Assembly: GCF_017377505.1 (NCBI RefSeq)
Contig: NZ_JAFREN010000010.1
Location: forward strand, 62,001-126,000
Direction of reading: 5' to 3'
Source: Enterococcus sp. DIV0212c
Lineage (GTDB): Bacteria; Bacillota; Bacilli; Lactobacillales; Enterococcaceae
Length of the DNA: 64,000 nt
Below the pieces are notes generated by a model, which did not search any database, had not been told where the DNA came from, and worked only from the letters and a program-made list of their open reading frames with translations. Positions within the stretch are counted from its first letter, which is position 1. Every line of letters begins with the position of its first letter. Below, piece after piece: positions 4,758 to 63,986 of the stretch. The position numbers and the translations under genes are program-made.

Positions 4758-5048
4758 ATGATAAATGGAATGCTTGAATTGACCGATCATTTAGGCCTTG
4801 ATTACTACTTCGTTTCTTTATCTAATGAAAAGGATGTTCTTGTTATTCGTAGCTTGAATAACTATTGCAAACCGATCGATAAAGCAGTAGAATTGGCTGA
4901 AATAGAAGGACTAACGTTTGGAGAAGAAGGTGAGCTTGATTTCATTTGCTTTGATTATGAGGGTGAACACTATCACTTTATTGATTATGGCAATCATCTG
5001 ATGCCTTTTTTAAGCAGTATTTTGCGTCCTGTAAGCGTTAGTTACTAG
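4758..5048 (+). CDS. Hypothetical protein, 96 aa
   Basis: A small acidic soluble protein (MINGMLELTDHLGLDYYFVSL...), with no signal peptide or membrane segment. An AGGAGG ribosome binding site lies 8 bp before the ATG, and a good promoter with a probable LacI-type operator precedes it. It sits 18 bp upstream of the LacI-family gene, so the two are almost certainly co-transcribed. I do not recognise the family. Confidence 0.75.
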   Translation: MINGMLELTDHLGLDYYFVSLSNEKDVLVIRSLNNYCKPIDKAVELAEIEGLTFGEEGELDFICFDYEGEHYHFIDYGNHLMPFLSSILRPVSVSY

Positions 5049-5066
5049 GTTTGAAAGGAGTTACTT

Positions 5067-5993
5067 ATGGCAAATATTCGTGATATTGCCAAGTTATCTG
5101 GTTATTCAGTTGCTACCGTTTCTCGTGTTTTGAATAATCATCCTTATGTGTCAGAAGAAAAACGTGAAAATATCCTGAAAATCATGCATGAACTTGATTA
5201 TATACCCAACGCCAAAGCACGTGATTTAAGCAGTGGAAAATCAAAACATATTGCGGTCATGATCCCTTATGCCAACCATCCTTATTCTGATAAAATCGTC
5301 AGTGGTATCTTGAATGCAGCTTTTGAGGATGGCTATAAAGTGACCTTACTTCCAACTAACTATGATCCTAAAGTCGAGAAACACTATTTAGATGAACTAG
5401 CTGCGAAAGCTTGGGACGGAATGATTATTACTTCAAAGAAAGTTTCTTTTGCAACTATTGCACGTTATCTAAAATATGCGCCAATCGTTTGTTGTGAAGA
5501 TACGGGGGATTTCCCTATTTCCTGTGTTTCGATCAAACGTGAGACATCCTATGTCGATCTTTTTACTAGTTTGAAAAAACAAGGGTATCATAAAATTGGT
5601 TTAACAGTCGGACGTACTGAAAAAGAAAGTGCTAGTACTGGATTGGTTTTGCAAGCTTATAGCGATATCATCGGCTATTCGGATGAGTCAATGATTGTTA
5701 GAAACTGCCGTACATACGAAGATGGCATCCAAGCTGGGCTTCATTTTTCAAAGGTAAAGGAACTTGAAGTGATCGTTACTAATGGAGATGATGTCGCCGC
5801 TGGTATTTTGCAGCATGTTTCTCTAGATGAGGTGACTGTGATCGGTGAGGAAAATTTACTCTCTAGCAGACTCCTCAATTTCTCTACGATCGATCATCAT
5901 ATCGATCAGTGTGGTGAGGCGGCTTTTCATCTTTTATGGGAAGAAAAAAGTAGAACTGTATCAATTCCTTATACATTTATTGAACGAGGATAA
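5067..5993 (+). CDS. LacI-family transcriptional regulator
   Basis: A 308-residue regulator, slightly shorter than the usual ~330. The N-terminal HTH and hinge are typical: MANIRDIAKLSGYSVATVSRVLNNHPYVSEEKR (residues 1-33), then YIPNAKARDLSSGKS. A periplasmic-binding-like effector domain follows. GAAAGGAG precedes the ATG. The operator-like dyad in the promoter of this two-gene unit suggests it represses itself. Its ligand is unknown; neighbouring genes suggest a sugar or sugar phosphate. Confidence 0.9.
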   Translation: MANIRDIAKLSGYSVATVSRVLNNHPYVSEEKRENILKIMHELDYIPNAKARDLSSGKSKHIAVMIPYANHPYSDKIVSGILNAAFEDGYKVTLLPTNYDPKVEKHYLDELAAKAWDGMIITSKKVSFATIARYLKYAPIVCCEDTGDFPISCVSIKRETSYVDLFTSLKKQGYHKIGLTVGRTEKESASTGLVLQAYSDIIGYSDESMIVRNCRTYEDGIQAGLHFSKVKELEVIVTNGDDVAAGILQHVSLDEVTVIGEENLLSSRLLNFSTIDHHIDQCGEAAFHLLWEEKSRTVSIPYTFIERG

Positions 5994-6005
5994 TCTATAA
6001 TAAAT

Positions 6006-6051
6006 AAGGACTGTAAAATGCACCCATGAGCAGGTGTATTTTACAGTCCTT
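6006..6051. terminator. Hairpin terminator after LacI-type gene
   Basis: A strong stem with one mismatch, AAGGACTGTAAAAT paired with ATTTTACAGTCCTT through CACC/GGTG, sits between convergent genes. The U-run is weak on the plus strand; it may serve both directions. Confidence 0.8.
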
Positions 6052-6054
6052 CAT

Positions 6055-6453
6055 TTAACTTTTATGATAAGTCAATGCTCGTTCAATACAAAAAGTTAAT
6101 TCGTTCGTTGGTAATTCTGCTTTAGGATCAAGTACGATTGCGCGATTTTTTGAAAACTCAAAAACGTCGCTAAACAATGCTCTGAATTCCTCTACTAATG
6201 TTGTTTGACAATGAAAGAAAATAGCTATTTTATCAGTACCAAAACGATCGATACGGATTGGACTACCTGATTTGCTTACTTTCGTTGCATAAGATGGCTG
6301 ATTCCATTTTAAACTTTCTTCTAACTCCCCGACAACAGTTACATGTGATGCCGTATCAAAAATCAGTTCACGAACTGCCAATAGAGGTTTTCGATACTCT
6401 TCAGGATAATGTTCAAAGACAGTCGCTACACTTACATCTGTGATTTCTTTCAT
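6055..6453 (-). CDS. DUF1801 family protein
   Basis: A 132-residue soluble protein resembling the DUF1801 (YdhG-like) family, with the family-like stretches ESLKWNQPSYA and GTDKIAIFFH. No biochemical role is established for the family. An AGAGGG ribosome binding site precedes the start. It is 15 bp downstream of the effector-binding protein gene on the same strand, so the pair is probably one operon ending at the shared hairpin at 6006-6051. Confidence 0.78.
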   Translation of the reverse strand: MKEITDVSVATVFEHYPEEYRKPLLAVRELIFDTASHVTVVGELEESLKWNQPSYATKVSKSGSPIRIDRFGTDKIAIFFHCQTTLVEEFRALFSDVFEFSKNRAIVLDPKAELPTNELTFCIERALTYHKS

Positions 6454-6468
6454 TTTATCCCTCTTTTA

Positions 6469-6993
6469 CTATTTTATAGGAATCCATAATTCACACTGAT
6501 AATCTGCCGCTTCCATATCACCAAGCGGATAAAACTCAATCCTCGGAATCTCAGCATTCTCCAAAATCGACTCATCTGTCCACGGCGCTTGCGTATTTTG
6601 TTTTAGTTGCATCAAATGATTAAGCTCAAAAGGTTGGTTTTCATCGATTGCCTTAACTCCTGCTGAAATTGCGCCAATACACTCAAATACTGCCCAAGCT
6701 GACGCTGGAAATTGACGATCATTTAAATCGTTTTTAGCAGATTCCTCATGATTTGCGCTCGTTCCAATCGTATAGTTAAATTGTTCTTGTTGGCTCTCGT
6801 TGCTATCTGAAACACCTAATAACCCCATGACAGTGCCGTCTGAGACAGACACCAGCTGATTGATTTTTGCTTCAGTCAAATTTGACCAGAAGTGTGATAT
6901 TTCATAGAAATTTTCATCGCCTTCGATCTTAACCATTTCTTTTGTGTACCCTCTAACAGTGAATGCTGCTTTTTGTTCAACTCTATAATTCAT
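6469..6993 (-). CDS. GyrI-like/AraC effector-binding domain protein
   Basis: A 174-residue protein consisting of a single effector-binding (GyrI-like, SRPBCC-related) domain, starting MNYRVEQKAAFTVRGYTKEMVKI and ending GDMEAADYQCELWIPIK, as is usual for this superfamily. There is no DNA-binding domain. Such proteins bind small ligands, often as stand-alone sensors or sequestering proteins. The start at 6993 has GGGG 8 bp upstream; an upstream in-frame ATG at 7032 lacks a better site. Confidence 0.78.
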   Translation of the reverse strand: MNYRVEQKAAFTVRGYTKEMVKIEGDENFYEISHFWSNLTEAKINQLVSVSDGTVMGLLGVSDSNESQQEQFNYTIGTSANHEESAKNDLNDRQFPASAWAVFECIGAISAGVKAIDENQPFELNHLMQLKQNTQAPWTDESILENAEIPRIEFYPLGDMEAADYQCELWIPIK

Positions 6994-7079
6994 AGTATCA
7001 TCCCCTTTTATGTGATGACTATAAATTAACATGGAAATGATGACAACCTTATGTCAGCATTTCAACTATTTCTAAAGAA

Positions 7080-7805
7080 TTACACGTCAGCTGAGGTAAA
7101 AACTTCAGATACATCATCATCTTCTTCTAGTTTATCAATCAAAATTTGTAGTTGCTCTTGTTGTTCATCTTCCAATTCTACTAAAGTTTGCGGTATCATT
7201 GTCAATTCGGCTTGTGCCAACATATAGCCGTCTTTCTCCAAAGTATCTCTAACTGTGATAAAATCTTCTGGCGCTGTATAAATTTCAAACACTTCTTCAG
7301 ACGTTTCCAAATCCTCTGCCCCTGCTTCCAGCACATTTTCAAACATCGTATCTTCATCCACAGAAAGACCTGAACGCTCAATTGCGATATAGCCTTTACG
7401 ATCGAACATATAGCTCACGGAACCCGTTTCACCTAAAGAACCGCCATTTCTAGTAAAAGCAACTCGGACATTGGTTGCTGTGCGGTTACGATTATCTGTT
7501 AAAGCGTAAACTAAAATCGCCACACCATTCGGTCCATATCCTTCATAAGTAATCTCATCATAATGTTCATTTTCGCCTGCACTACTGGCTTTTTTTATGG
7601 CACGGTCGATATTATCATTTGGCATATTAGCAGCCTTGGCTTTATCCATTACTAGTCTTAATGCTGCATTCGTTGCAGGATCAGCACCTCCAGCTTTAGC
7701 TGCCATATAAATTTCTCTTGATAATTTTTGGAAAATCTTTCCTCGTTTTGCATCCTGCGCATTTTTTCGCCCTTGAATATTTTTCCACTTACTATGTCCC
7801 GCCAT
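7080..7805 (-). CDS. yebC: YebC/PmpR family protein
   Basis: A 241-residue YebC/TACO1-family protein. The hallmark start [23 protein letters not shown] is intact, followed by the [21 protein letters not shown] segment near residue 100. Members were long annotated as transcriptional regulators; YebC2 types help ribosomes through proline-rich stretches. Which role applies here cannot be told from sequence. The start at 7805 gives the canonical N-terminus and has AGGAG upstream. It stands alone, with a terminator-like hairpin upstream at 7948-7996. Confidence 0.95.
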
Positions 7806-7947
7806 TCGTTTTTCCTCCTCATGTTTAATGCTAAACGAACTCATTCATCCTTGAAAATTAGCTGTAAAGCTTGTTTACCTTCTATTTTACTATTGTTCTT
7901 AATAGTTGCAACTTTTACTCTTCTTCTAAATATTTCCTATAAAAAAC

Positions 7948-7996
7948 AAAAGTCAGATACAACAACGCTTTTCAGCAGCTGCCGTATCTAACTTTT
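7948..7996 (-). terminator. Terminator after small hypothetical gene
   Basis: AAAAGTcAGATAC pairs with GTATCTaACTTTT around a 23-nt loop. On the minus strand it is followed by a T-rich run, so it would stop transcription of the 8003-8212 gene before yebC. Confidence 0.75.
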
Positions 7997-8002
7997 ATTT
8001 TT

Positions 8003-8212
8003 TTAATTGGTAACAGACAAATAAAGATCTATGTCTCGTAGTTTAAACATTTCACCATCGTTGAGCGGAATCGTACATTCTTCTTGTTCTCCGCTCAGTA
8101 GTTGAATATTGATGCACTCAGTATCTGTAAAAATTCGATATGCAAGCATTCCTAGACTAGGGATTGTTGCTGTATCTCTTATTTTATTTTTATGAATCGT
8201 TAGCTTCTCCAT
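8003..8212 (-). CDS. Hypothetical protein, 69 aa
   Basis: A small soluble protein (MEKLTIHKNKIRDTATIPSL...) without a signal peptide or membrane segment. It has a GGGGAG ribosome binding site 7 bp upstream and its own terminator, so it is likely a real gene. I do not recognise the family. Confidence 0.6.
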   Translation of the reverse strand: MEKLTIHKNKIRDTATIPSLGMLAYRIFTDTECINIQLLSGEQEECTIPLNDGEMFKLRDIDLYLSVTN

Positions 8213-8291
8213 TTAATCACTCCCCAAATTCTATTATAGAAGAGTTTCTTTTAAATTTGACTATCGCCTCTATAAGAGTTTTTTCATTTAA

Positions 8292-8684
8292 CTACAATAA
8301 CGGAAGAACTTTCTTCGGCAAATCCTGTTCATTGATTTCTTCCCAGCTAAAAACACTTTGACCTTTTGCGGTTATTTTGAGGAATTTATCAGGCGCTAAT
8401 TGTTTCCCAAATGAGATATATTCGATTTTCCTTGCCTTTCCGTGTTGATTAAAACACGTTTGAACGTAGGCAAAGTTTTCTATTTTAGTGACTGAATCAG
8501 GGTATTTGTATTCATAGTTCTTAGTTGTCTTAGCATATAAAATTTCAGTTTTGACAAGCGGATTCAAACGATCGATCATAGCTGCCGCAGTTGACGTGTT
8601 ATTGTATGTGTATATTCTAAGCCCAATAATGCTGATTGCTAAGAACATCATTATCGCCAACATCGTTTTACAGAATCGTTTCAT
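8292..8684 (-). CDS. YxeA-like (DUF1093) secreted protein
   Basis: A 130-residue protein with one N-terminal membrane anchor or signal sequence (MLAIMMFLAISIIGLRIYTY). The soluble domain resembles the YxeA/DUF1093 family: KTEILYAKTTKNYEYKYPDS, then KIEYISFGKQLAPDKFLKIT. The family is small, exported and of unknown role, often in several copies in Firmicutes. GAGG lies 9 bp upstream of the ATG at 8684, better placed than for the in-frame ATG at 8699. Confidence 0.65.
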   Translation of the reverse strand: MKRFCKTMLAIMMFLAISIIGLRIYTYNNTSTAAAMIDRLNPLVKTEILYAKTTKNYEYKYPDSVTKIENFAYVQTCFNQHGKARKIEYISFGKQLAPDKFLKITAKGQSVFSWEEINEQDLPKKVLPLL

Positions 8685-51514: not shown

Positions 51515-52645
51515 CTATCTGCTTTTCTTTTTATTCATAGCCGTATTAGACTTCTTTGCTTGTTTTCCAATTTTGTTTGCTTTTCGGATTTTTTCCTTAC
51601 GTTTACGTGAGAATACAAGTAATGAAAAAATAACTGAAATAACGCCAATGAGCCCCCCAGCAATTAAACCAATCAGTTGCCAATCCATCCCTTTTTCTTG
51701 AACTAAACCTACATCTCGTTCATTAAATTTATCTGCGTCTTTTTTTGTAATTTCAAATTCTTTCATCCATGTCCATTTTTGGTCATTAGACCCCGTCACT
51801 AAAATTTTGGCTTCATACTTACCAGATATCATCTTTTCTCCATTCATACTGACTGGAAAATTGATAAATGTATTTGGTGCCATACGCATGGCCGTTTGTT
51901 TCCGTTCATACAAGACAGTCTCTTTCCCTTTTGGGGTTACTTGAACCTCTACTGCCATATCATTTAGGTAAGTAGCAACCACATTGGAAAAATTTACAAA
52001 TATAGCATTACGAGCATTATCTTGATCAGCTTTAACTTGATTTAATTCTAATTCTGGTATTAATGCCTGGTCTGTTTCTTGCAATAGAATAGCAATGACA
52101 TAGGCATATTCATTGATAATCTTAGAGCCACCTTCTTCAGTAGCATCATCTTTATTTTTACGCATGAGCTGAACACCACCTGCAATGCTGCCATCATAAC
52201 TTGTTTCAGGCATCTGAATTGCCAATTCAAGATTTTTGGTTTCCCCTGGCTCTAAATCTACTGACTTTGGACCTGTTACGATATCTGTAAAATCGAATTT
52301 CAACGAGGCATCATTTTCAATAGTTGAATTACCATATTCAAGCACACCATTTTGATTTGTTTTTGCGCCATTTATACCTACATCCACAGTAATTTTCTTT
52401 TTCCCAGGATTATTTAACCTGATATTCAGCATTTGGTGATCATTAGGCGTCATTTTTAATTTATAATAACCGATATTTTCTTCTATTTGATTATCTGGAA
52501 AAGCGAGTTGATAGGTAAACCCTGTTGCTCCCCCTGGATCTGCTTCTTTAGCAAATCCCTCTTCACTTATAATATTTCCAGCAAACAAAATGTTAAGTGC
52601 CACAACAAATGACAGCCATATCTTTTTTCTTTTTTTGATTTTCAT
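51515..52645 (-). CDS. DUF916/DUF3324 protein (WxL-interacting protein)
   Basis: A 376-residue cell-surface protein: signal peptide (about 1-32), DUF916 domain (FTYQLAFPDNQIEENIGYYKL, in about 42-160), DUF3324 domain (about 165-310), one membrane helix (about 325-345) and a Lys/Arg-rich tail. Proteins of this layout occur in nearly every WxL cluster and bind WxL proteins and peptidoglycan. A hairpin at 52720-52754 separates it from the WxL gene upstream. Confidence 0.92.
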   Translation of the reverse strand: MKIKKRKKIWLSFVVALNILFAGNIISEEGFAKEADPGGATGFTYQLAFPDNQIEENIGYYKLKMTPNDHQMLNIRLNNPGKKKITVDVGINGAKTNQNGVLEYGNSTIENDASLKFDFTDIVTGPKSVDLEPGETKNLELAIQMPETSYDGSIAGGVQLMRKNKDDATEEGGSKIINEYAYVIAILLQETDQALIPELELNQVKADQDNARNAIFVNFSNVVATYLNDMAVEVQVTPKGKETVLYERKQTAMRMAPNTFINFPVSMNGEKMISGKYEAKILVTGSNDQKWTWMKEFEITKKDADKFNERDVGLVQEKGMDWQLIGLIAGGLIGVISVIFSLLVFSRKRKEKIRKANKIGKQAKKSNTAMNKKKSR

Positions 52646-52774: not shown

Positions 52775-53584
52775 CTATTCGGCTGCAACGATTTTCCAAG
52801 TTACTGTAGCTGTATATGTGTCAAGAGTCATATTTGAAGCTGTTGACGCAGGTACAGATAGTTTCACAGAGGTACTATCAGTTCCTTTATCTTCCGGTCC
52901 TAGATTCCCTTTAGGTGCTCCTTCTCCTGGTATATAGTCTTTACTTTGACCAAATTCCATTACATAAGTTCCTTTACCTTCTTCTGCAACTTTATTTGCT
53001 ACTACAACATCTTTCGCTCCACCCTCAAAAGCTAATTGGAAACCTGTTGCTACATTAGATGGCACTTTGTTTTTATTCGCAGAATCTGCAACAGCCATTC
53101 CATTCATGTAATCAATTGTTGAATTTGATAATATTCTGTTTGAATCTTTAGCAGCAGTAAATTGTTTAGTTAATTCCGCTGTTATAGTATAACCATAAGC
53201 TCCACCACGAATATCTGACCAACCTAAAATAGCACCACGTGTTCCAGTTCCTGCTGGTGTTGCTTTGGATAAATCAATTGGAGCCGCATAGGCTTCAACA
53301 TCTTTACTTGATGTTTTAATTGTCCCAAAATCTAAATTAGAAACTTGATCGATCATCAATGCTCCAGCAGTATCATTTGGAGTAATTTCAGGATGATCTG
53401 GTAATTTTTGATCTGGTTTTTCCGGATCAGGAGTTTTTCCCCTACCAGGATCTCCCCCTTCTTCTACAACTACTTTGCCTTCTGATGGCAATTCAGTTGC
53501 TACTGCAAACGCTTGTGTTCCTCCTACTAATGATGCACCTAACAGGGCAACTAATGTCATTGTACATAAACTTCTTACTTTCAT
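52775..53584 (-). CDS. WxL-domain surface protein, 269 aa
   Basis: A secreted WxL protein: signal peptide to about AFA|VA (residue 27), a Pro/Asp-rich linker (DPGRGKTPDPEKPDQKLPDH), then the WxL domain from about residue 85 (VSNLDFGTIKTS) to the end TYTATVTWKIVAAE. The first WxL motif is altered (GAYGYTITAEL), the second is WKI. WxL domains bind the wall non-covalently. It follows a sister gene by 33 bp. Confidence 0.92.
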   Translation of the reverse strand: MKVRSLCTMTLVALLGASLVGGTQAFAVATELPSEGKVVVEEGGDPGRGKTPDPEKPDQKLPDHPEITPNDTAGALMIDQVSNLDFGTIKTSSKDVEAYAAPIDLSKATPAGTGTRGAILGWSDIRGGAYGYTITAELTKQFTAAKDSNRILSNSTIDYMNGMAVADSANKNKVPSNVATGFQLAFEGGAKDVVVANKVAEEGKGTYVMEFGQSKDYIPGEGAPKGNLGPEDKGTDSTSVKLSVPASTASNMTLDTYTATVTWKIVAAE

Positions 53585-53617: not shown

Positions 53618-54433
53618 TTAAGGCAACTCGGCTAATATCCAAGTTAACTTCGTTTCGTATTGCACCGGATAGATTTTTGTCGTTTCTGGTACAGTTAAAG
53701 TGACCGCAGAATTGGTCTGAGCTGGTTTTTGATACTCTTCATCCAATATTGCTTTTCCTTCTTTATCCACAAGGGGTTGCAAGGTAGTAGGCTGATTATC
53801 ACTATTTGTTTTAGATGCTCCAAAAGCAATCGTCCAAACGCCTCTTCCAGCACCTTTATTGGCTGTGGCAACCTCATAAGCTGTATCCATGGCATTTATG
53901 GCAATCGTTTCTCTCGTAACGGTCGGGGCTAAACTGTCACTGCTGGACTTGGCCCAGCCTTTATCTAATGACAAGTACGCGCCAACTAATTCTTGCTCTT
54001 CTCTATTCTGAATTACAGGGTTACGAAACTGTGTTTGCTGTTTCACTTGAAGTGACCAACCGGTTGATACTCCTCGTTGATCGGTGAGTTGCACATAGCT
54101 TCCTCGTGCTTCTGTTTCATCAAAAAATTGTTGAGCTAACGCTAGGTACTTCCGATCACTTTTTTTGGTTTCAGCCTTACCAAAATTCAATGCAGAGACA
54201 AAATCGATTCTTAAAGGGCCAGTCGTATACGGACTTTCTCCAGGATTAGCAGGCTTCTCAGGATTTTCTGGATCAACGATGTCTGAACGATCACTTCCTG
54301 TTACTTTGACTGTACCAGCTCCATCTATTGTATCTGGTGAATCAGCATAAGACGGTTTTTCAAATCCAATGAAACTTGTCAGAAAAATCAACAAGCTTAA
54401 TGTAGATACAAATCTCTTTGATCGTACCATCAC
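53618..54433 (-). CDS. WxL-domain surface protein, 271 aa
   Basis: Signal peptide to about SYA|DS (residue 31), a linker with EKPANPGES, then a WxL domain: VSALNFGKAETKK, GWSLQVKQQTQF (first WxL motif) and YETKLTWILAELP (second). The start overlaps the stop of the small LPXTG gene (ATGA). Non-covalent wall attachment is expected. Confidence 0.92.
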   Translation of the reverse strand: MMVRSKRFVSTLSLLIFLTSFIGFEKPSYADSPDTIDGAGTVKVTGSDRSDIVDPENPEKPANPGESPYTTGPLRIDFVSALNFGKAETKKSDRKYLALAQQFFDETEARGSYVQLTDQRGVSTGWSLQVKQQTQFRNPVIQNREEQELVGAYLSLDKGWAKSSSDSLAPTVTRETIAINAMDTAYEVATANKGAGRGVWTIAFGASKTNSDNQPTTLQPLVDKEGKAILDEEYQKPAQTNSAVTLTVPETTKIYPVQYETKLTWILAELP

Positions 54434-54762
54434 TGTGCCTCCCTTCTATACTTACGTAGAAAGAAGAAAAAGAGACCTATGATCATAAGAACTAAGATGA
54501 TCCATCCATATTTCTGAATGAGTTCTCCCGTTTGTGGAAATCTTCCTTTTGGCTTCACTACTTTGGGTTCATCAGGGGAACTTTCCGAACTATCTTTAAT
54601 CGGAGTACTTGATTCTGTCGTCTCTTCGTAAAAGATAATCTTTCCCCCTCTATTTACTTGCCCGTCACCACCTTCGACAGCTTGAGCAGAAGGCCCATTT
54701 CCAAAAACACTGCATAGGATAACCACAAAAAGGAGTAATAGTTTTATTTTTTTATTTTTCAA
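54430..54762 (-). CDS. Small LPXTG-type protein of WxL locus
   Basis: A 110-residue protein: signal peptide (LLLLFVVILCSVFGNGPSAQA), a short mature part and a C-terminal sorting signal FPQTGE with membrane helix and RKYRREAQ tail, a variant LPXTG. TTG at 54762 is the likely start because AAAGGAG lies 8 bp upstream; an ATG 42 bp earlier overlaps the previous gene and lacks a site. Small LPXTG proteins accompany DUF916 and WxL genes in many clusters. Confidence 0.85.
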   Translation of the reverse strand: MKNKKIKLLLLFVVILCSVFGNGPSAQAVEGGDGQVNRGGKIIFYEETTESSTPIKDSSESSPDEPKVVKPKGRFPQTGELIQKYGWIILVLMIIGLFFFFLRKYRREAQ

Positions 54763-54776
54763 TATTTCTCTCCTTT

Positions 54777-57497
54777 CTATGGTTGTCCTTGCATGAGTTT
54801 CCATGTAATCGTTCCAGTATAATTTCCAGTGTATACAATATCAGAGGAACCGATTTTTAGTTTGATTCCATCCGTCCCTTCGGTTTTACCCCAAGTACTA
54901 CTAACAACAACCTTGTCGTTTTTGCCTTCAGTATTTTCATAAATAGACGCTGCAGCTTCTCCTAATATTTTTTCGTTCCCTTTATTCACATAACGTAAAG
55001 CATCTACTAATTCTTGTCCTTTTTCATTCATCATCGGTTTCGTTAATGTCGCTGTTAGATGCCAACCTTCCGAACGATTTGAACGACTATCTAGAACAAC
55101 TAGTTGCTCATTATATGTGGGATTTTCTAAGGTTTGGTCTTTTGCGTCATACGTTAAAGTTCCAAAATCTAAGGTCTTAGGTGACGAAACTAATTGTAGA
55201 ACTCCATCTAAAGTCAGGGTTTCTATATTAGACTCTAAACCTTCACTATCAGTTGCATAGACACTTATAATATGAGGTCCATAAGATAAATCTTCTGCAC
55301 TGATAGTAAATTCATACGGAAGATTCGTATTCTTCGGATCATTTTTATATACCGGAGATATTGCGGTGGCAAGTCCACCGTCAATTTTATACCACAGTGT
55401 AACCGATTCTGACTCTTTATCATTGAATGTTCCTGTCAGTTTTTTTGCCGTACCATCTGATTCACCAGTTTTTTCATTCAAGGTAATCTTTGGTGCTGTA
55501 TTTTCTTCCACTTGTTCAGGCAACAAAGCATTAGCTGAACTATTCAATGGATTATTGGATGAATCAAAACCATCAGCATAAATCCAGTTATCAATCATTT
55601 TTCCATTACCTGAAAAATTGATTTTGGCTGAAAAACTGATTTTTAAATCAGTTGACTCTCCTACTGCAATGTCTTGTTTTGGCAAACTCAATTTACGGTT
55701 ACTGGCATTATAATATTCCGGGTGATCGGTTGTTATACCATCTTTGCTCACTTTAATCGTGCTCGTATCGATATCTAAATAAGATTGGATTTCATCGTAG
55801 ATATTCACATCTTTCCAGATATTTGTTGGGACGATCGAAAGATTTTTAACTTCCATTTCATAGTTTAAAATATCACCAACTTTTGCTTTCGCTCCTGGTG
55901 GACGTGTTTCATCCTCTTTAGCTGACTTATTAACAACTGTTTTAGAAACATACGGCTGCACCATTTCAGCTGATTTTATTTTTACTTTAGCTGTATTACT
56001 AGAAACAACTTTTTCTTTCGCTCCATTAGTAGCTATCGTATCTGTATAATGTAGTTCCGCTCTATTGGGTATAACGAATGCTTGTTCAATCGCCGAGTAC
56101 GTTTCTCGAAGCGCTGCTGGATTTTCTTTGTTCAAAACACCTTTAATATCCATTGCAAACATTGCACCATACATCGATTGATCTTTCATAAATTGTTCAG
56201 TAAATTCAACTCGAATAACATCTCTGACACTTGCTAGCTCAGCTTCAACACCATTTTCAAAATCAGCTGGAACTGCTGGCACATTTACATTAGGATCAAT
56301 CGTGATATTATAATAACTTTTAGGCAATTCTTGGTTTGTTTGTGCCAATTTAATTTTAATATCACTATCTTTATTTTTGATCTTGATTGCGTTATGTACC
56401 GGATCTGTCCAGATAAAGGAATTATAGCGATAATTTTTCCCATTATTTGGTGTATATTGATAGATAGAATATTCTACATTATCCTTTTCATCTGTGTTGT
56501 CATTATCATATCCAATTTTATTGGGATTATCTGTTTCAAATGGCAGTAATCCTTCATTGTCAACTGCTGTTGTACTATCTGACATTCGTAGAATTAGGTT
56601 ATAACTGCTAGTCGGCCCAAAAGTATATGCCGCCCAAGATTTTTTAGCTATTTCTCGATGCTCTTCACCATCTGGAGCATTTACACCTGGTATTGTTGGC
56701 ATAATATGTAGCAATCCATCAGTCATTTTATAACTTAGCAAAGTGCCTTGTGGAACGATTATATCTTGTAAATTCATCTGCTCTTCATTCAATAATATGC
56801 TTTCACGATAATCCACATCAGCAAAAACATTATAACCAGTTACTTCGATTTTATTTTCTGTTCCATGCTCAAGATACTCATATTTCAATTCAACATTAGG
56901 ATACAATCTTTCTTGTGTATGATTTTTTGCTCTTGTCAAACGAACTTGATTAAAGTATCCACTACTTCCACCTATCAGCAGTCCTGGATAGGTATTTCTA
57001 TTGTTAAAACCATCAGCTAAATCCATTTTTTCAACAGTAATTCGCATGTCTATCCATTTACCTTTAAACAAACCCACCTTCGTGTATGTCAACTTAGATC
57101 GTTTATTAGCTACAGCGTCATCTGGTGAATAATAATAAGTATTTCCAGCAAATCCTTCATCCGGGGCTGATACCAATGCAAAGTCTGTGGTTTTCACTAT
57201 AGTATCTGATGTCCAACGCGGAATGAAACTGTATTTGCTTTCTAAAGAAGTCTTCGTTGGATTCTCTAAATTAATAGCTTTACTGTGTCCTGACAATAAT
57301 TTATCACGACCAGTAGTAGGATCATCTGTCAAATAGGGCTGCATGAGTTTGTTATTTTTGCTCTCACTAGCTACTCCGCTCTCTGTTTCCTTTGCTTGAA
57401 GGTTGTAACCATTCATAAAACCACTTTGGAAAAGAGCCAAGATAAATACAAGACATATTATTGCTACTGCTAGCAATTGAATTTTTTTCTTTTTCAA
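54777..57497 (-). CDS. Large WxL-domain surface protein, 906 aa
   Basis: Signal peptide/anchor (residues 5-27), a long N-terminal region of unrecognised beta structure (about 60-480), a DUF11/isopeptide-like module (VSKTVVNKSAKEDETRPPGA, about 518-650), an Ig-like module (APKITLNEKTGESDGTAKKL, about 670-765) and a C-terminal WxL domain: TLDFGTLTYD, GWHLTATLTKPM and TGTITWKLMQGQP. Probably the largest surface-exposed adhesin of the locus. Starts 85 bp after the beta-helix gene, behind a hairpin. Confidence 0.9.
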   Translation of the reverse strand: MKKKKIQLLAVAIICLVFILALFQSGFMNGYNLQAKETESGVASESKNNKLMQPYLTDDPTTGRDKLLSGHSKAINLENPTKTSLESKYSFIPRWTSDTIVKTTDFALVSAPDEGFAGNTYYYSPDDAVANKRSKLTYTKVGLFKGKWIDMRITVEKMDLADGFNNRNTYPGLLIGGSSGYFNQVRLTRAKNHTQERLYPNVELKYEYLEHGTENKIEVTGYNVFADVDYRESILLNEEQMNLQDIIVPQGTLLSYKMTDGLLHIMPTIPGVNAPDGEEHREIAKKSWAAYTFGPTSSYNLILRMSDSTTAVDNEGLLPFETDNPNKIGYDNDNTDEKDNVEYSIYQYTPNNGKNYRYNSFIWTDPVHNAIKIKNKDSDIKIKLAQTNQELPKSYYNITIDPNVNVPAVPADFENGVEAELASVRDVIRVEFTEQFMKDQSMYGAMFAMDIKGVLNKENPAALRETYSAIEQAFVIPNRAELHYTDTIATNGAKEKVVSSNTAKVKIKSAEMVQPYVSKTVVNKSAKEDETRPPGAKAKVGDILNYEMEVKNLSIVPTNIWKDVNIYDEIQSYLDIDTSTIKVSKDGITTDHPEYYNASNRKLSLPKQDIAVGESTDLKISFSAKINFSGNGKMIDNWIYADGFDSSNNPLNSSANALLPEQVEENTAPKITLNEKTGESDGTAKKLTGTFNDKESESVTLWYKIDGGLATAISPVYKNDPKNTNLPYEFTISAEDLSYGPHIISVYATDSEGLESNIETLTLDGVLQLVSSPKTLDFGTLTYDAKDQTLENPTYNEQLVVLDSRSNRSEGWHLTATLTKPMMNEKGQELVDALRYVNKGNEKILGEAAASIYENTEGKNDKVVVSSTWGKTEGTDGIKLKIGSSDIVYTGNYTGTITWKLMQGQP

Positions 57498-57582: not shown

Positions 57583-58872
57583 TTATGTTCTTGATGCCCA
57601 AAGAGTAATTTTACCAAAGTTTTGAACTTGAAATTCTTTATTAAATTCATCATTTTCGGATGAAACTGATGTTGTCGCACCATTGACAACAGATACAGTT
57701 GCGTCAGTTAATATCCAATCTTTGTATAAGGTATTGTAATCGCTGAAACCTTTAACCCCTTTTTCATTTTTGAAATCAAGAGTGATATTTCCTGTACCCT
57801 TCTTAGTATTGAAAATCGGTGCACCAATCGTTTTGTTTCCTAATTCAAATGTTCTTGCACCATCTACATTAATTGAAGAATTTGTTGATGAAAAAATTAC
57901 TCCCTCAGAACCTTCACCTGTAATATACACATATGAACCCTCAGCAGCATTCACTTGAGAACCTGGCTGTTCAAGATTCAATGCTGGTTTAGTTCCTTTA
58001 TCAGATCCGTTAGAATGAATTTCAAATTCAGCATTTTCTCCAACATTTAAAGCTGGAGCTGTTTTATGTTGTAATGATTTATCAAATGCTAAACCAGTTC
58101 CTTCAGTTTCAATTCTCAAAATTGAGTCATTTTGTAAATTGATTTGATTGATTTTCCCATTAAAAGCTGAACGTGCTTTGTTCTTCACTTTTAAGTTAAC
58201 TTCTGCTCCAGTTTCAACTGTTGCAGTTCCCTGCCAGCCGTTTTCATAAGTTCCTTTAAATTTGAATGCACTGCGATCATGTCCGCTATTCGCTGCAACC
58301 CCGTTTAAAACAGAAGCATCTTTAAAGACAACATGAGCAACCCAGCCGATCTCATCTTCTGTATCGATTGTGTTTGTTCCTTCAAAACTCAATGTTCCAT
58401 TATTCAATTGAACTAATGTCTCACCATCAAATGTATTGTCTTTTGATACAAAGTCCCAGCCATTGCTAGCTTTTAAGAAAGTACCTAAAGAACGACTTCC
58501 GACAACATTCAAGTTTTCCAATGTAAATGTTGCTTTTTCTTTGCTTGAAGTTTTAGCGCTGATATGGTATTTCCCAAGATCAATTTTTGCACCTTCTGCA
58601 GAGTAGACTTTGACATCTCTGCTTGGAACACCAGTGATTGATCTAGAAAACGTAATATCTTCAGTTACTTCGATTACAGATACAGACACATCTGCCAATG
58701 TTGCTTTCAACTCTTCATAGGTACTTACTTGTGTAGCACCTTCTATTGGTGATACTGCTGTAACTGCGACATTTCCTTCTGCTTGCGCTGCTAATGGTAA
58801 AACAGTGGGTGCAATCAAGGCTCCAAGTACTACCGCTTTTGTTACTGTTGATTTAAATGATACTTTCTTCAT
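57583..58872 (-). CDS. Secreted pectate-lyase-like beta-helix adhesin
   Basis: A 429-residue secreted protein: signal peptide to about AQA|EG (residue 31), then repeated short beta-strand units typical of right-handed beta-helix domains (VEVTEDITFSRSI-like IEVTEDITFSRSI, KATFTLENLNVVGSRSLG, NNGTLSFEGTNTID). It resembles the pectate-lyase-like adhesive domains found in WxL clusters; no lyase active site is claimed. It lacks an obvious WxL or LPXTG signal. AGGAGG precedes the start. Confidence 0.8.
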   Translation of the reverse strand: MKKVSFKSTVTKAVVLGALIAPTVLPLAAQAEGNVAVTAVSPIEGATQVSTYEELKATLADVSVSVIEVTEDITFSRSITGVPSRDVKVYSAEGAKIDLGKYHISAKTSSKEKATFTLENLNVVGSRSLGTFLKASNGWDFVSKDNTFDGETLVQLNNGTLSFEGTNTIDTEDEIGWVAHVVFKDASVLNGVAANSGHDRSAFKFKGTYENGWQGTATVETGAEVNLKVKNKARSAFNGKINQINLQNDSILRIETEGTGLAFDKSLQHKTAPALNVGENAEFEIHSNGSDKGTKPALNLEQPGSQVNAAEGSYVYITGEGSEGVIFSSTNSSINVDGARTFELGNKTIGAPIFNTKKGTGNITLDFKNEKGVKGFSDYNTLYKDWILTDATVSVVNGATTSVSSENDEFNKEFQVQNFGKITLWASRT

Positions 58873-58962: not shown

Positions 58963-59673
58963 TTAACAAACTAGCATATACCCCTTAGAACGAACTGTTT
59001 TGATGTACTTAGGAGCTTTTTCATCTTTCTCAATCTTTTTACGCAAATGAAAAATCAAGTTTGACACTCGGTATTTACGGGCACCCACATCATCTTTCCA
59101 AACATTTTGATAAATTTTTTCATAACTGACCGCTCGTCCAATATTTTGATAAAGATACTCCATCGTTAAATATTCTAATTTTGTCAGGTCAATTTCGTTG
59201 TGATCTATTAACACACTAAAATTGCTTGATACAAGTTTTAGGGTTGCTGGTTCATTCATTTGATATTCATTTCGTGTCTGCAATGATTGCTCTGTAGGAA
59301 AGTCTGATGTGTTTTTCTGACGATTCAGTGCATTAGTAATTAGTTGAACCAATTCATCCGGTTCACATTCATCCCCAACAACTCCATCAGCTCCTAATCT
59401 AGGATAAACACGACGGTTGGCTTTAGTTAAATGTTCTGAAACAATCCAAACTAATGTAGTAGAACATTTTCTTAAATGAACAATCATTTCACAAACATTT
59501 CCTATATAATGATTTTCATCATCTTGAATGATGATTGCATCTAAGTCATCCTGTTTTTTTGTCATCACTTGTTCTTGCTCAATATTATGGACATTCTTAT
59601 ATGTAGCTTTAAGTGTATTCACGTAATCTTTTTCTGTTGCAGCAGATAATGAAACGTATCCAATTTTGTACAT
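58963..59673 (-). CDS. Winged-helix regulator with degenerate receiver domain
   Basis: A 236-residue OmpR/PhoB-like regulator. The N-terminal half looks like a receiver fold (DLDAIIIQDDENH, TTLVWIVSEHLT, LGADGVVGDECEPDEL), but the usual Lys is missing, so phosphorylation is doubtful. The C-terminal DNA-binding domain is typical (VSYEKIYQNVWKDDVGARKYRVSNLIFHLRKKIE, in two parts, about 180-220). No histidine kinase is adjacent. It heads the WxL locus and lies next to the invertible element. Start at 59673 is the best fit; the ribosome binding site AAAGGAG is about 12 bp away. Confidence 0.85.
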   Translation of the reverse strand: MYKIGYVSLSAATEKDYVNTLKATYKNVHNIEQEQVMTKKQDDLDAIIIQDDENHYIGNVCEMIVHLRKCSTTLVWIVSEHLTKANRRVYPRLGADGVVGDECEPDELVQLITNALNRQKNTSDFPTEQSLQTRNEYQMNEPATLKLVSSNFSVLIDHNEIDLTKLEYLTMEYLYQNIGRAVSYEKIYQNVWKDDVGARKYRVSNLIFHLRKKIEKDEKAPKYIKTVRSKGYMLVC

Positions 59674-59843
59674 AACACATCTTTCTCCTTTCAACCAACT
59701 TAAATAAAATCAAGCATCATTCATATTCTTTTTATTTTTTATTAAAGAAAGTTATAATGAGGTACATCCTACCTTGTTCATAGTATGTATATCCCCCATT
59801 GCTTTCTTCTATTTACAGAAATGTCAACAAAGTACACAAATCT

Positions 59844-59874
59844 AAACATATCTTGAAACTACTTCTTTCAAGAT
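59844..59874 (+). repeat. Left inverted repeat/crossover-like site
   Basis: The 25 bp at 59844-59868 recur exactly, inverted, at 61376-61400. The core (59850-59874) is a perfect dyad: arm ATCTTGAAA, 7-bp spacer CTACTTC, arm TTTCAAGAT. This matches the layout of tyrosine-recombinase crossover sites. It lies ~170 bp upstream of the WxL regulator start. Confidence 0.85.
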
Positions 59875-59887
59875 AAGTCTATTTTTT

Positions 59888-59900
59888 CCTTTATATACCA
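59888..59900 (-). promoter_or_regulatory. Possible extended -10 promoter inside the invertible segment
   Basis: Minus-strand TGGTATATAAAGG lies 14 bp inside the left site and points through it towards the WxL regulator. An almost identical TGGTATATAATGG lies outside the right site (61511-61523). No good -35 is seen, so this is a candidate only. Confidence 0.35.
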
Positions 59901-60002
59901 GTAAATTTTAAAGATGTTGACCATCTTACTGACGGTTTAAAACAAATAAAATTATAGTAAATCATCAAGAATTTACTAAAAAAATGAGCTTAGAATAAAA
60001 AA

Positions 60003-60024
60003 ATCCACTCGTTTAAGAGTGGAT
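60003..60024 (-). terminator. Terminator of recombinase gene
   Basis: ATCCACTC pairs with GAGTGGAT around six bases; the minus strand ends in seven T. The stem overlaps the recombinase stop codon. Confidence 0.9.
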
Positions 60025-61125
60025 GCTCAATCTTTTATCGATAATACTTATTGCAGCTTTTCTATTTTCCCATAGTGAATCTGTATATGTATCCAAGGTC
60101 ATTTTTATTGATGAGTGACCCAATATCTTACTCAAAGTAGCAATATCAATGCCTTCTTCCACACATCGGGTAGCAAACGTATGTCTTAACGTATGAAAAT
60201 GAATATCGTCTATTTGTGCTTGGACAACATTTTTTTTAAATCTGTAGTTGATGATTCTTGGTTCCGTAAAACTACCTCTACAATTTACAACATACTCACT
60301 CGTTGTATCTTTCTTCCAACTCATTAAATACTCTTTTAAATTTACAGCAAGAGGAATTACTCTTAAGGAACTTTTGGTTTTAGGTGTATCAATCATTATT
60401 TCCGTTTTCCCGTTGATTGTAGGAGAAGGGATTCTAGAGATTGTACGCCGAACGTGAATAATATCTTTTTCCATGTCAATGTCAGACCATTTCAGACCGC
60501 TGATTTCACCGATTCTCATTCCTGTATACAATGCGATAATTTCTCCCGAACACTCTTTTTTCTTTAAAGCAGCTTGCTCTAAACGTTTTTGTGCATATAA
60601 TGTTAACGCAGAAATTTCTGTTTTTTGTGTGGTCGGTAATACAATTTTAGTGCATGGATCACTAGCTATTTTTCCATCAAATTCTGCTTTTTTCAGTGAA
60701 CTTTTTAAAATAGCAACAATGCTACGAATCGTACTGCCGGCTAAATTCATAGTATTTAAATAGTGAATAAACGATTCAATATCTTCTGATTTCAACTCGC
60801 TTAACTTTTTCTTTCCTAAATAAGGCAAAATATATTTATCTATCTTTCCTTTGTAGTTTGAATAAGAGGATGCTTTAATTTTACTTTTCATTAGAATGTC
60901 TAGCCAATAATCAAACCATTGCTCTAATGTACCTGAAAAAGAAGTAATTTTTTTATTTGAAGAAATATACTGCGCTTTTTTTACCGCTAATTTTTCTTTG
61001 ACTTCTAAATATTGTTTGCCATAGACATATCCATAAATAATTCGATGGTCGATTGTTCGTCCCTTGATATAACGCCCTTCCCAGCGACCGTCTTTTCTTT
61101 TATAAATATTTTCACCTTTTCTCAC
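60013..61125 (-). CDS. Tyrosine recombinase (Tn916-type integrase family)
   Basis: A 370-residue site-specific recombinase: N-terminal arm-binding domain (about 1-60, KRKDGRWEGRYIKG), SAM-like core-binding domain (about 65-155) and catalytic domain with Arg in ALYTGMRIGEISG (about 205), HTLRHTFATR (about 315) and Tyr in SSIKMTLDTYTDS (about 347). All catalytic residues are present. Instead of an integrated element with direct repeats, it is flanked by inverted crossover-like sites at 59850-59874 and 61370-61394. This suggests it inverts its own ~1.5-kb segment. Confidence 0.92.
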   Translation of the reverse strand: MRKGENIYKRKDGRWEGRYIKGRTIDHRIIYGYVYGKQYLEVKEKLAVKKAQYISSNKKITSFSGTLEQWFDYWLDILMKSKIKASSYSNYKGKIDKYILPYLGKKKLSELKSEDIESFIHYLNTMNLAGSTIRSIVAILKSSLKKAEFDGKIASDPCTKIVLPTTQKTEISALTLYAQKRLEQAALKKKECSGEIIALYTGMRIGEISGLKWSDIDMEKDIIHVRRTISRIPSPTINGKTEIMIDTPKTKSSLRVIPLAVNLKEYLMSWKKDTTSEYVVNCRGSFTEPRIINYRFKKNVVQAQIDDIHFHTLRHTFATRCVEEGIDIATLSKILGHSSIKMTLDTYTDSLWENRKAAISIIDKRLSIHS

Positions 61126-61157
61126 TGACTAAATCCCCTCCAGTTTGTGTAAAATAA

Positions 61158-61178
61158 TGACGGCTACCTTGACGGCTA
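61158..61178. repeat. Direct repeats upstream of recombinase (possible arm sites)
   Basis: TGACGGCTA occurs at 61158-61166 and 61170-61178; related copies are ACGGCTA at 61317-61323 and TGACGGTTTA at 59930-59939 near the left site. Short repeats like these could be arm-type sites for the recombinase's N-terminal domain. They are few, so chance is possible. Confidence 0.4.
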
Positions 61179-61369
61179 ATAATATCCTTTTTTTTGCTAA
61201 TAACGTATGATTCCGATGTTTTTTAGTTACAGATTAATTAGAATAAAAGAGATAATAACAATTTTTTCACATTTTTCTCAATTTTTATTGTAATACAAGA
61301 AAAAAATGAAACAAAAACGGCTAGACGAATCAAAATAAATGCTTTAGACTAATATAAGTAAAGTATTTC

Positions 61370-61400
61370 ATCTCAAAAGAAGTAGTTTCAAGATATGTTT
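61370..61400 (-). repeat. Right inverted repeat/crossover-like site
   Basis: On the minus strand it carries the same 25 bp as the left site. The core (61394-61370) has arm ATCTTGAAA, spacer CTACTTC and arm TTTTGAGAT (two changes from perfect dyad). The spacer is identical and inverted relative to the left site. The region 61401-61629 beyond is AT-rich and holds no gene I can support. Confidence 0.85.
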
Positions 61401-61715: not shown

Positions 61716-63986
61716 TTATTCAAAAACTTCTGGATAAAGCATTTTTAACACATCCATCGTCAAATGACGTCCCTTACCAGAATGTGGATATGCATGCATA
61801 TGCATCGCAGGATTAAAGTTTGCTTCTATAATTCCATAAGTCTTACTATTCTTAGTTCCTTTTATCGATTTATCTGGAACAATCAAGTCGATTCCACAGA
61901 TTTTTGCTCCTAAGGCTTGAACTGCTTCAACTGCAATTTGTTTATAGCTTTCATCAAAACTATCTGTGACATCAATGGAATCTCCACCCGTGCTGACATT
62001 TGAATTTTCTCGCAAATAAACGATTTGATCTTTTTCTGGAACTGATGTTATTAATAAATTTTGTTCTTTCAACATCAAACGTTCCACATCGCCTAGCTGG
62101 ATCAACTCTAATGGCGAGCGATGATGCGTTCCTCTCAATGGATCTAGATTTTTTTCTGCTACCAATGCTTCAACAGATCGAATCCCGTCACCAACAACAT
62201 TGGCTGGCACACGTAGCATAATTGCTTTCACTTGGTCATCTAAAACAAAGAAACGGTACTCAGTCCCTGGCAAGAACTCTTCTATTAAAACAGCTGAATC
62301 TTCTTTAAATGCCAAGTTTAGCGCTTCTGTATAATCAGTCAGCGAAGCTCCTTCTTTAAAAATCGTAATCCCCAAACCATAGTTTGTTGTCTTTGGTTTG
62401 ATCACAAAGGCTTTTTCTGCATATTTCACATAAGCTTGCTCTGCCCGCTCAATCGTATCAAATTCATCGCCAGCAGGCACCGTAAACCCAGCTTCTGCCA
62501 AGACTTTTTTAGTGACTGTCTTATTTTCCATGATCAAAGGAACAACATAGCTATCTTTGCTAGTCATATTCGCGTTTTTGACATATTCAATGTGGTCGTT
62601 ATGTTTGAGTTTTAAAAATTGTTCTTGCTCATCCAATATTTCCACTTCTACACCTTTTTGAATGATATCAAATAAGAACAGTTGCGTAGATAACTCCATA
62701 TTTCTAAAACCTGCTAGTTGATAGGGATGTTCAAATGCCATTCCTTGATATTCTTTACCAAAAACAATTCCTAATTCTTGATTAGAATTGCTTTCAATGA
62801 TTGTCCACATTTTTCCAGCGATCGTTAAATCGGGTGTTCTTAGCTGTGCTCGATGAATTTCTACTGATTTTTTAAATCTAAACAGACCTAAAGCTTCGAT
62901 CATTTCATCCATTTCAGCAAATATCCGATCCCCTTCTGCTAAAAGTTTTACTTGAGCAAAAGGGTGACCTAAAGCAACTTGTTCATTTAAAAAGTCTCCA
63001 GTAGCAACCCAGTCATTCGGTGCTTCTTTTTCATCTGTCCACAATAAATACAACATAAACAAATGAATGAACTCAAGTGATTCTTCATCTACACCTAAAG
63101 GAGCAAATGGATTTAAATCTAAATTTCTTAGTTCAATATAACGAACACCAGTTTTAGGCAAATCAGCCATCTGTTGTCCACCGCGTAGTCTAACAGCTGA
63201 ATAAAACTCTTTTTCTTCTGATAAGATGCCATTTTCAACCATTCGATGAATATCGTTGATGTAATGTTGTAATGATTCATAAGACACTTTGACATCTTCA
63301 TTATTTTTATAACCGAATGAACTGTTACGCAAACTTCTGACTGGTACATTCGGACGTTCTTCTCGTTCAGTAAAGTAACCAGACTCAGCAACTGGAGATG
63401 CACCGAATAGATATGTGATCAGCCAACGGTAACGTAAATAATTCCGTGATACTTTCATATATAGAATGTTTTTGAATTCTTCAATCGTTTCGTATTCTGC
63501 TTGTTCTGAAAAGAGCTGTTGAACCAATTCGATCGCATATTCAAAATTAAAATGGATCCCACTGACCATCTGCTTACGTTTGCCATATTCTCTTGCCAAA
63601 TAACGACGATAAAGTATTCCTTCAAACTGATCAAGTTTGGCTATTTTGATGTCTTCATCTTTTAGTGGTAGTTTTGGCGGCATACTTAGCGGCCAAAGCA
63701 TTTCATTTTTATTCATCGAACGTATCGCTACATCGTGGATCGCTGCAAGATAGCGCAACATTTCATTGATTGAATTCGCCACAGGTGTAATCAATTCCAT
63801 TTGTGTTTCGCTGAAATCTGTTTGAATATATGGATGATACGAACGATTCCCAAAAATTTCTGGATGGTCGGTCAATGCTAATTGACCATCAAATGTCGTA
63901 CGTTGACTTTCTTTTTCTAATCCAAAACGTGCAGCCATGACATATGGACGTACACTTTTTTTCTGTAACAACTCTCTAAATTTCAT
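61716..63986 (-). CDS. gshF: Bifunctional glutathione synthetase GshF (GshAB)
   Basis: A 756-residue fusion enzyme making glutathione in two steps. The N-terminal half is glutamate-cysteine ligase (GLEKESQRTTFDGQLALTDHP and QTDFSETQMELITP near residues 22-70; GGQQMADLPKTGVRYIELRNLDLNPF in pieces about 270-295). The C-terminal half is an ATP-grasp glutathione synthetase (VIKPKTTNYGLGITIF about 527; EFLPGTEYRFFVLD; IDLIVPDKS; EANFNPAMHMH near the end). Length matches the enterococcal/streptococcal enzyme. AAAGGCGAC precedes the ATG; the gene is complete. Confidence 0.96.
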   Translation of the reverse strand: MKFRELLQKKSVRPYVMAARFGLEKESQRTTFDGQLALTDHPEIFGNRSYHPYIQTDFSETQMELITPVANSINEMLRYLAAIHDVAIRSMNKNEMLWPLSMPPKLPLKDEDIKIAKLDQFEGILYRRYLAREYGKRKQMVSGIHFNFEYAIELVQQLFSEQAEYETIEEFKNILYMKVSRNYLRYRWLITYLFGASPVAESGYFTEREERPNVPVRSLRNSSFGYKNNEDVKVSYESLQHYINDIHRMVENGILSEEKEFYSAVRLRGGQQMADLPKTGVRYIELRNLDLNPFAPLGVDEESLEFIHLFMLYLLWTDEKEAPNDWVATGDFLNEQVALGHPFAQVKLLAEGDRIFAEMDEMIEALGLFRFKKSVEIHRAQLRTPDLTIAGKMWTIIESNSNQELGIVFGKEYQGMAFEHPYQLAGFRNMELSTQLFLFDIIQKGVEVEILDEQEQFLKLKHNDHIEYVKNANMTSKDSYVVPLIMENKTVTKKVLAEAGFTVPAGDEFDTIERAEQAYVKYAEKAFVIKPKTTNYGLGITIFKEGASLTDYTEALNLAFKEDSAVLIEEFLPGTEYRFFVLDDQVKAIMLRVPANVVGDGIRSVEALVAEKNLDPLRGTHHRSPLELIQLGDVERLMLKEQNLLITSVPEKDQIVYLRENSNVSTGGDSIDVTDSFDESYKQIAVEAVQALGAKICGIDLIVPDKSIKGTKNSKTYGIIEANFNPAMHMHAYPHSGKGRHLTMDVLKMLYPEVFE

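Follow-up and report, generated by a model that had tools for sequence, protein, structure and literature searches.

Phase variation by inversion of a promoter is the principle of the E. coli fim switch. The invertible Hin segment carries an outward promoter, and Hin itself, which belongs to the serine recombinases, acts together with Fis and an enhancer. The integrases of lambda and of the Tn916-Tn1549 elements join or excise elements at unlike sites, and arm-type direct repeats are a feature of the lambda and Tn916 systems. We know of no arm sites for FimB/E and RecV.

The accessible passages of a read-based survey report one inversion signature among 22 Bacilli samples, several invertible sites in C. 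difficile, some of which need RecV, and the location of the hin gene inside the Salmonella invertible segment (PMC5903667). In the accessible text of PMC9779914, phase variation of E. faecalis is described for restriction-modification systems. A literature search that had little reach into subscription journals, and that consisted mostly of titles, starts of abstracts and passages, gave no report in enterococci of cassettes of the kind described below.

The segment studied here lies near the right end of the window, by which we mean the whole stretch of 64,000 nucleotides from Enterococcus sp. DIV0212c that was analyzed, and it belongs to a family of related cassettes. Like the fim and RecV switches, the cassettes are short segments with a predicted promoter, inverted repeats and a tyrosine recombinase, and surface genes are among their targets. 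Unlike in those switches, the recombinase gene lies inside the segment, one per cassette, its product has an extra N-terminal domain, and paired arm-like repeats are present; moreover, each cassette has a private spacer, and the orientation is nearly fixed in assemblies. The cassettes share with the Salmonella Hin (H) segment the presence of both a recombinase gene and a predicted outward promoter within the invertible segment, but their recombinase is of the tyrosine type and has core and arm-like sites, and a serine catalytic domain was not found. The recombinase, INT, resembles the lambda and Tn916-Tn1549 integrases in its fold, its catalytic set, its predicted β-β-β-α N-terminus and the direct repeats on both sides; in contrast to these systems, the two core sites are inverted and nearly identical to each other, and the integrase gene is the only gene in the segment. 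Inversion of DNA by a tyrosine recombinase is described in the Lactobacillales for Streptococcus pneumoniae PsrA/CreX, which, according to the accessible text of PMC7096588 and PMC4948785, acts on methylase specificity genes (hsdS) and, unlike the cassettes, does not move a promoter.

On the sequence evidence assembled below we consider it quite probable that positions 59844-61400 form a self-contained promoter-inversion switch, likely assembled in the OFF state, whose predicted promoter would face the regulator of the WxL locus only after a flip.

The segment, its crossover sites and its recombinase

The segment is bounded by a pair of inverted repeats of 31 nt, found by repeat finding in the window (94% complementary; Table 1), of which the outer 25 bp (59844-59868 and 61376-61400) are perfect. 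The left site reads ATCTTGAAA-CTACTTC-TTTCAAGAT (59850-59874), with arms that are complementary at 9 of 9 positions, and the right site, read on the minus strand, is ATCTTGAAA-CTACTTC-TTTTGAGAT (61394-61370), with two mismatches in its inner arm. The inverted repeats at the two ends of the segment thus have the same crossover spacer. The original prediction had placed a tyrosine recombinase gene between 25-bp perfect inverted repeats, and both were found as stated; it had also given both sites 9-bp arms around the same 7-bp spacer, which is right for the spacer in both sites and for exact arms in the left site only. Its distance of ~170 bp between the left site and the regulator agrees with ~150 bp to the TTG start at 59694 and ~170 bp to the next ATG. 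Exact copies of a 16-bp core of the site occur twice in the 3.54-Mb host genome, both at this segment. A chance origin of such repeats was rejected, since 99 of 111 distinct relatives score at least 12 with one finder, against 1 of 111 when the flanks are base-shuffled.

Table 1. Features of the window in and around the segment (window positions)
Feature	Position	Strand	Basis or detail
WxL-interacting protein (WxLIP PGBD + HBD)	51515..52645	-	Pfam
WxL protein	52775..53584	-	Pfam
WxL protein	53618..54433	-	Pfam
Small protein, LPXTG-like C-terminal anchor FPQTGE	54430..54804	-	read by eye
Large protein with C-terminal WxL domain	54777..57497	-	Pfam
Surface protein, pectate-lyase-like adhesive domain	57583..58872	-	Pfam
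OmpR/PhoB-type winged-helix regulator, predicted target	58963..59694	-	Trans_reg_C (Pfam)
Left (3'-side) crossover site	59844..59874	.	outer repeat; arms 59850-59858 and 59866-59874; spacer CTACTTC 59859-59865
3' arm-type pair CGTCA / GGTCA, 12-bp period, ~45-60 bp inside left site	59918..59934	-	sequence
Intrinsic-terminator-like hairpin overlapping INT stop	60003..60024	-	sequence scan
Tyrosine recombinase INT, 370 aa, GTG start	60013..61125	-	Pfam, alignment of 41 members, predicted structure
5' arm-type pair CGTCA-N7-CGTCA, 12-bp period, just upstream of INT start	61158..61174	-	sequence
Predicted outward promoter TTCACA-17-TGTAAT	61266..61294	+	family-wide enrichment; divergent from INT, points away from WxL locus as assembled
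Right (5'-side) crossover site, inverted	61370..61400	.	spacer 61379-61385
Bifunctional glutathione-synthesis-type gene (Glu_cys_ligase + ATP-grasp)	61716..63986	-	Pfam

The regulator and the WxL operon lie to the left of the segment and run in one direction. No Pfam match to a receiver domain was found in the regulator. On the right, the glutathione-synthesis-type gene and the predicted outward promoter converge in the assembled orientation.

INT matches the Pfam families Phage_integrase (2e-27) and Phage_int_SAM_3 as well as the phage-integrase family PHROG 1 (8e-69), and close named relatives of it are from Enterococcus. All 41 aligned INT members have a Phage_integrase (tyrosine) domain, and no serine-recombinase model is among the Pfam families shown for INT. 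Within this alignment R204, H311, R314, H337 and Y347 are invariant and K249 is nearly so; we take R204/K249/H311-x-x-R314/H337/Y347 to be the R, K, H-x-x-R, H, Y catalytic set of tyrosine recombinases. The predicted structure (41 sequences, pLDDT 86.6) has a β-β-β-α arrangement at residues 7-56, and the top Foldseek matches of the model include Tn1549 Int (6en2) and lambda Int (1z1b). The matched Tn1549 structures start only at residue 82 of Tn1549 Int, and the Pfam families shown for INT include no arm-binding model. The hairpin at the end of the gene would keep INT transcripts from entering the regulator; by a strict test, a terminator-like hairpin follows INT in 41 of 162 family copies and in none of the shuffled sequences.

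Arm-like repeats are a general property of the cassettes. The INT strand has the motif CGTCA in the 5' inner region of 118 of 119 cassettes and in the 3' inner region of 116 of 119, compared to 4 and 7 after shuffling, and on the strand opposite INT it is present in 6 (5') and 8 (3') of the 119. Pairs with 12-bp spacing were found by a looser pattern in 76/119 (5') and 49/119 (3') cassettes, usually at a distance of 30-52 bp upstream of INT and of 45-62 bp inward of the 3' site. Repeats of the arm type thus appear to lie on either side of the region that recombines. Together with the predicted β-β-β-α N-terminus, the CGTCA pairs suggest a lambda/Tn916-type arm-binding integrase turned invertase. 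In the mechanism that we propose, INT would bind the two core sites and, through its modeled N-terminal domain, the paired CGTCA repeats.

A family of cassettes with private spacers

Relatives of INT (E-value of at most 1e-40) are present in 37 of 105 genomes of the host's family, with 2 to 27 matches per positive genome and 9 in the genome of the window; the listings of the 37 genomes sum to 144 + 105 + 90 matches, fragments included. We examined 195 distinct copies, in which higher-scoring copies are over-represented. Own inverted repeats (score of at least 12) were found in 154 of the 178 distinct copies with at least 450 bp on both sides, by a finder that needs an 8-base seed and so favors identity somewhere, not at the dyad center. 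The 24 copies of these 178 without a repeat at the threshold include one of the nine in the window's genome (L094). In an even draw of 395 genomes of the order (E-value of at most 1e-50), six genomes outside the family had a single INT relative each; repeats scoring at least 19 and CGTCA motifs, recorded without a shuffled control, accompany five of the six, two of which have a broken recombinase frame.

What do the cassettes face? Those of the window's own genus mostly face a regulator and a WxL-type operon. Several cassettes of the E. avium group (c19/c20/c26) face LPXTG operons that are pilus-like by sequence reading, one annotated E. raffinosus copy faces an accessory Sec locus, and one E. 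gilvus copy faces a WxL locus. The idea of a switch in front of a WxL-locus regulator therefore fits the layout in the window but was too narrow in scope, as the relatives number in the hundreds and also stand before pilus-like and accessory-Sec loci.

Individual copies have features of their own. Two E. raffinosus alleles (L219, positions 5000-8600, and L220) are ~99% identical in the flank, ~79% in the recombinase cassette and ~89% in the accessory-Sec operon, as if cassette and operon had been exchanged as a single module. In one of three near-identical strains, the recombinase match on the E. raffinosus HG-5 plasmid (L221) is split in two, probably by a frameshift, and sequence searches reported one in-frame stop in L095 and in similar recombinase copies of genomes G071, G074, G077, G081 and G087. 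The copy L094 (contig C23 of the window's genome, 9232-10353 in coordinates with INT on the plus strand) has no repeats at a useful score; immediately downstream of it no regulator was recognized, and upstream there is a gene of the WxLIP cluster. In L108 (5189-6337 and 15505-16833) and in L199, a WxL operon stands between two recombinases that are ~10 kb apart, and one recombinase of these pairs is without a clear partner site, perhaps reflecting a nested arrangement. In part of the avium group, the first gene after the cassette encodes a protein of 290-307 aa whose sequence has MFGFGKQK(K/R)D or VFGFGKQKKD at its start or close to it (L301, L302 and L303; also L172, L174 and L186), and the module that holds this gene is also present on a 76-kb contig of G014.

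When the two sites of each cassette were aligned on the dyad, the central 7 bp were 100% identical, the arms were less so, and identity beyond the arms was at background. The spacer was the same in both sites in 86/86 cassettes with a clear dyad, a count that omits the 33 of 119 cassettes without a clear even-centered dyad, and these 86 cassettes have 63 different spacers; the left spacer of one cassette and the right spacer of another agree at 40%. Within each of seven genomes, which together hold 51 listed cassettes with usable repeats, all spacers differ. Two of the sites in G074 have 24 of 25 bases in common, and the difference falls in the spacer. We propose that INT would exchange strands within the 7-bp spacer, and private spacers would then prevent the copies of one genome from recombining with each other.

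The membership of INT in a phage-integrase family and its resemblance to the Tn1549 and lambda integrases would also suit a small mobile element, a remnant with a phage- or ICE-type integrase whose repeats are the halves of attachment sites for integration and excision, and some copies are indeed located on megaplasmids or plasmid-like contigs. However, the sites are inverted and not direct, the copies repeatedly precede regulators and surface operons in one orientation, and in 193 pairs of copies both flanks match and the orientation is the same. Near-identical inverted sites at conserved positions are not what an enzyme that integrates or excises an element between unlike sites would be expected to use, and we give the mobile-element explanation hardly any credence.

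Orientation of the cassettes in relatives

Opposite orientations of a cassette were found at three places in relatives, so that both orientations do occur there. The window copy was seen in a single orientation, in its own assembly and in G074 (84% identity), the sole close orthologue found. At the first place, the cassette of G076 is in the opposite orientation to those of G090 and G083, with both flanks conserved. The alignment of G076 and G090 has the cassette at 85% identity on one strand, from site to site, and the flanks at 80-84% over 5.5 and 4.2 kb on the other strand, beginning ~130 and ~850 bp outside the sites. At the second place, G077 differs from G074, from G084 and from a copy in the window's own genome (contig C8), again with the cassette on one strand and both flanks on the other. 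Because the flank alignments start at such distances (~130-850 bp or more) outside the repeats, the change at these two loci is bounded by the alignment of the cassette and not by that of the flanks. The third place is the copy on contig C9 of G014, the 76-kb contig, where the operon side matches contig C70 of G006 over 8.5 kb at 95% on the opposite strand, right up to the site, and the cassette matches at 87% on the same strand. The other flank is alike for only 89 bp, and the module therefore stands elsewhere in G014.

A further trace comes from the draft genome G082. Its contig C23 starts at the first base of the 5' site of a cassette, and the first 97 bp of contig C81 are identical to the inner 3' end and site of C23 and continue into a different flank. 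Two such junctions in one assembly may be the trace that a mixed culture would leave; a partial duplication is a possible origin of the C81 junction. No orthologous locus to place the C81 flank was found among the loci examined. In a list assembled by hand from the loci examined, 20 cassettes lie near a contig end, and in 6 of them the contig does not extend past a site; this is suggestive only, because any contig cut inside a site is bound to be scored as lacking outside bases. Two pattern searches in G006 and one in G013, with hits partly inspected, made out no further alternative junctions.

The orientation relative to the target is far from random. A target at most 900 bp away was recognized on the 3' side in 127 of 164 copies and on the 5' side in 2, and none was recognized in 35, among them the G014 C9 copy; placement on the 3' side (127/129 classifiable copies) is a strong bias. 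The 509 pairs with recombinases at least 60% identical, which are not independent of each other, comprise 378 with the same and 13 with the opposite orientation, the rest being uninformative. A comparison of orientation among strains, suggested along with the original prediction, thus gave a divided answer: besides the three places in opposite orientation there are four E. raffinosus strains that share one orientation, and 378/391 informative pairs agree. Free 50:50 flipping was rejected on the 127:2 distribution in assemblies. Geometry alone gives no bias, because the arm-like repeats lie in the segment and turn with it. The single-contig genome G076 has a cassette in the rare, predicted ON orientation (L235, C1 2296279-2297373).

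Some apparent cases of inversion were discarded. The copies L011 and L008, one of the 13 opposite pairs, share the cassette only in nucleotide comparison, and both are located in one E. raffinosus genome. Of three further exceptions, L117 and L119 are due to short back-pointing ORFs (95 and 93 aa), and only L144 is a true inversion.

Could the cassettes be static devices, in which INT binds at the repeats and arm repeats to regulate its own and neighboring transcription, without strand exchange in most copies today? The 127:2 bias, the agreement of the E. raffinosus strains and the fact that the arm pairs cover the INT leader are all consistent with this explanation. We nevertheless consider it very unlikely in view of the three places in opposite orientation, the two junctions in the G082 assembly, the spacers that are identical in every scorable pair and yet differ between cassettes, and the catalytic residues that are invariant in 41/41 aligned members, with the lysine nearly so. 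The capacity of the family to invert is well supported, and from it we infer inversion of the window copy; the claim of inversion as opposed to static repeats accordingly stands for the relatives.

The predicted promoter and the surface of enterococci

Clustering at 70% left 66 representatives, in which we scored a promoter model against dinucleotide shuffles. Across the family there is enrichment for a promoter that reads outward from the 5' inner end and diverges from INT (mean z 2.24, 61% at p ≤ 0.05, n = 66), and the enrichment holds irrespective of whether the upstream gene points towards the cassette (n = 37, z 2.28), points away from it (n = 13, z 2.33) or was not found (n = 16, z 2.08). 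The promoter spacer is 17 bp in 58/66 representatives versus 22/65 and 32/66 in controls, with a score that itself favors 17. There was no enrichment at the 3' inner end (z -0.23, with 5% at p ≤ 0.05, the chance rate, in 65 representatives), in 150 bp outside the 3' site (z -0.3) or in the direction of INT itself (z -0.10; in-gene control, 0.03), and no conserved INT promoter was found in the family. The flank before the 5' site has a slight enrichment towards the cassette (z 0.41). The outward promoter of the window is a weak match (TGTAAT), and its orthologue in G074 reads TTCATA-17-TATAAT. A consensus promoter scan of the window region gave 11 hits compared to 11.8 expected, which is no excess, and the promoter in Table 1 is absent from its list.

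The predicted promoter points away from the WxL regulator as assembled, and the assembled orientation is therefore probably OFF, an assignment that rests on the promoter statistics. A flip of the segment would likely switch the WxL locus ON: transcription from the INT-divergent promoter would then cross the site and enter the gene of the regulator, the presumed activator of the surface operon.

The original prediction had assigned the two states the other way round, with an extended -10 inside the segment that points through the left site to the regulator and that flipping would remove. Such a sequence does exist (extended -10-like TGnTATATA at ~59892-59900, minus strand), and a switch with this promoter at its 3' end would be ON as assembled, in what is the common orientation, and OFF after the flip. 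The hairpin at the end of INT is no argument against it, because the hairpin lies upstream of the proposed -10. However, the family-wide test found no enrichment at the 3' inner end or beyond the site and placed the conserved promoter at the opposite, right (5') end. We therefore rejected a 3'-end promoter as the driver and consider a switch of this polarity unlikely; an inversion switch that is OFF as assembled and would be turned ON by a flip remains the reading that we prefer.

For the family as a whole we lean, with moderate confidence, towards the view that many enterococci and their kin may carry a battery of separately addressed flip switches, with up to 27 recombinase relatives per genome. 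These would be domesticated lambda-type arm-binding integrases with private 7-bp spacers, mostly OFF, so that rare cells would turn on single WxL, pilus-like or accessory-Sec loci and a clone would explore combinatorial surfaces. Such cassettes would be a dense addition to the inversion systems of the Bacilli and would show that an integrase with arm-type sites can serve as a dedicated inverter. Their near-identical natural sites, which differ in the spacer, may also provide a ready set of orthogonal recombinases. If many surface loci do sit behind switches that are rarely ON, laboratory cultures would be mostly OFF and would miss adhesins that are relevant in the host.
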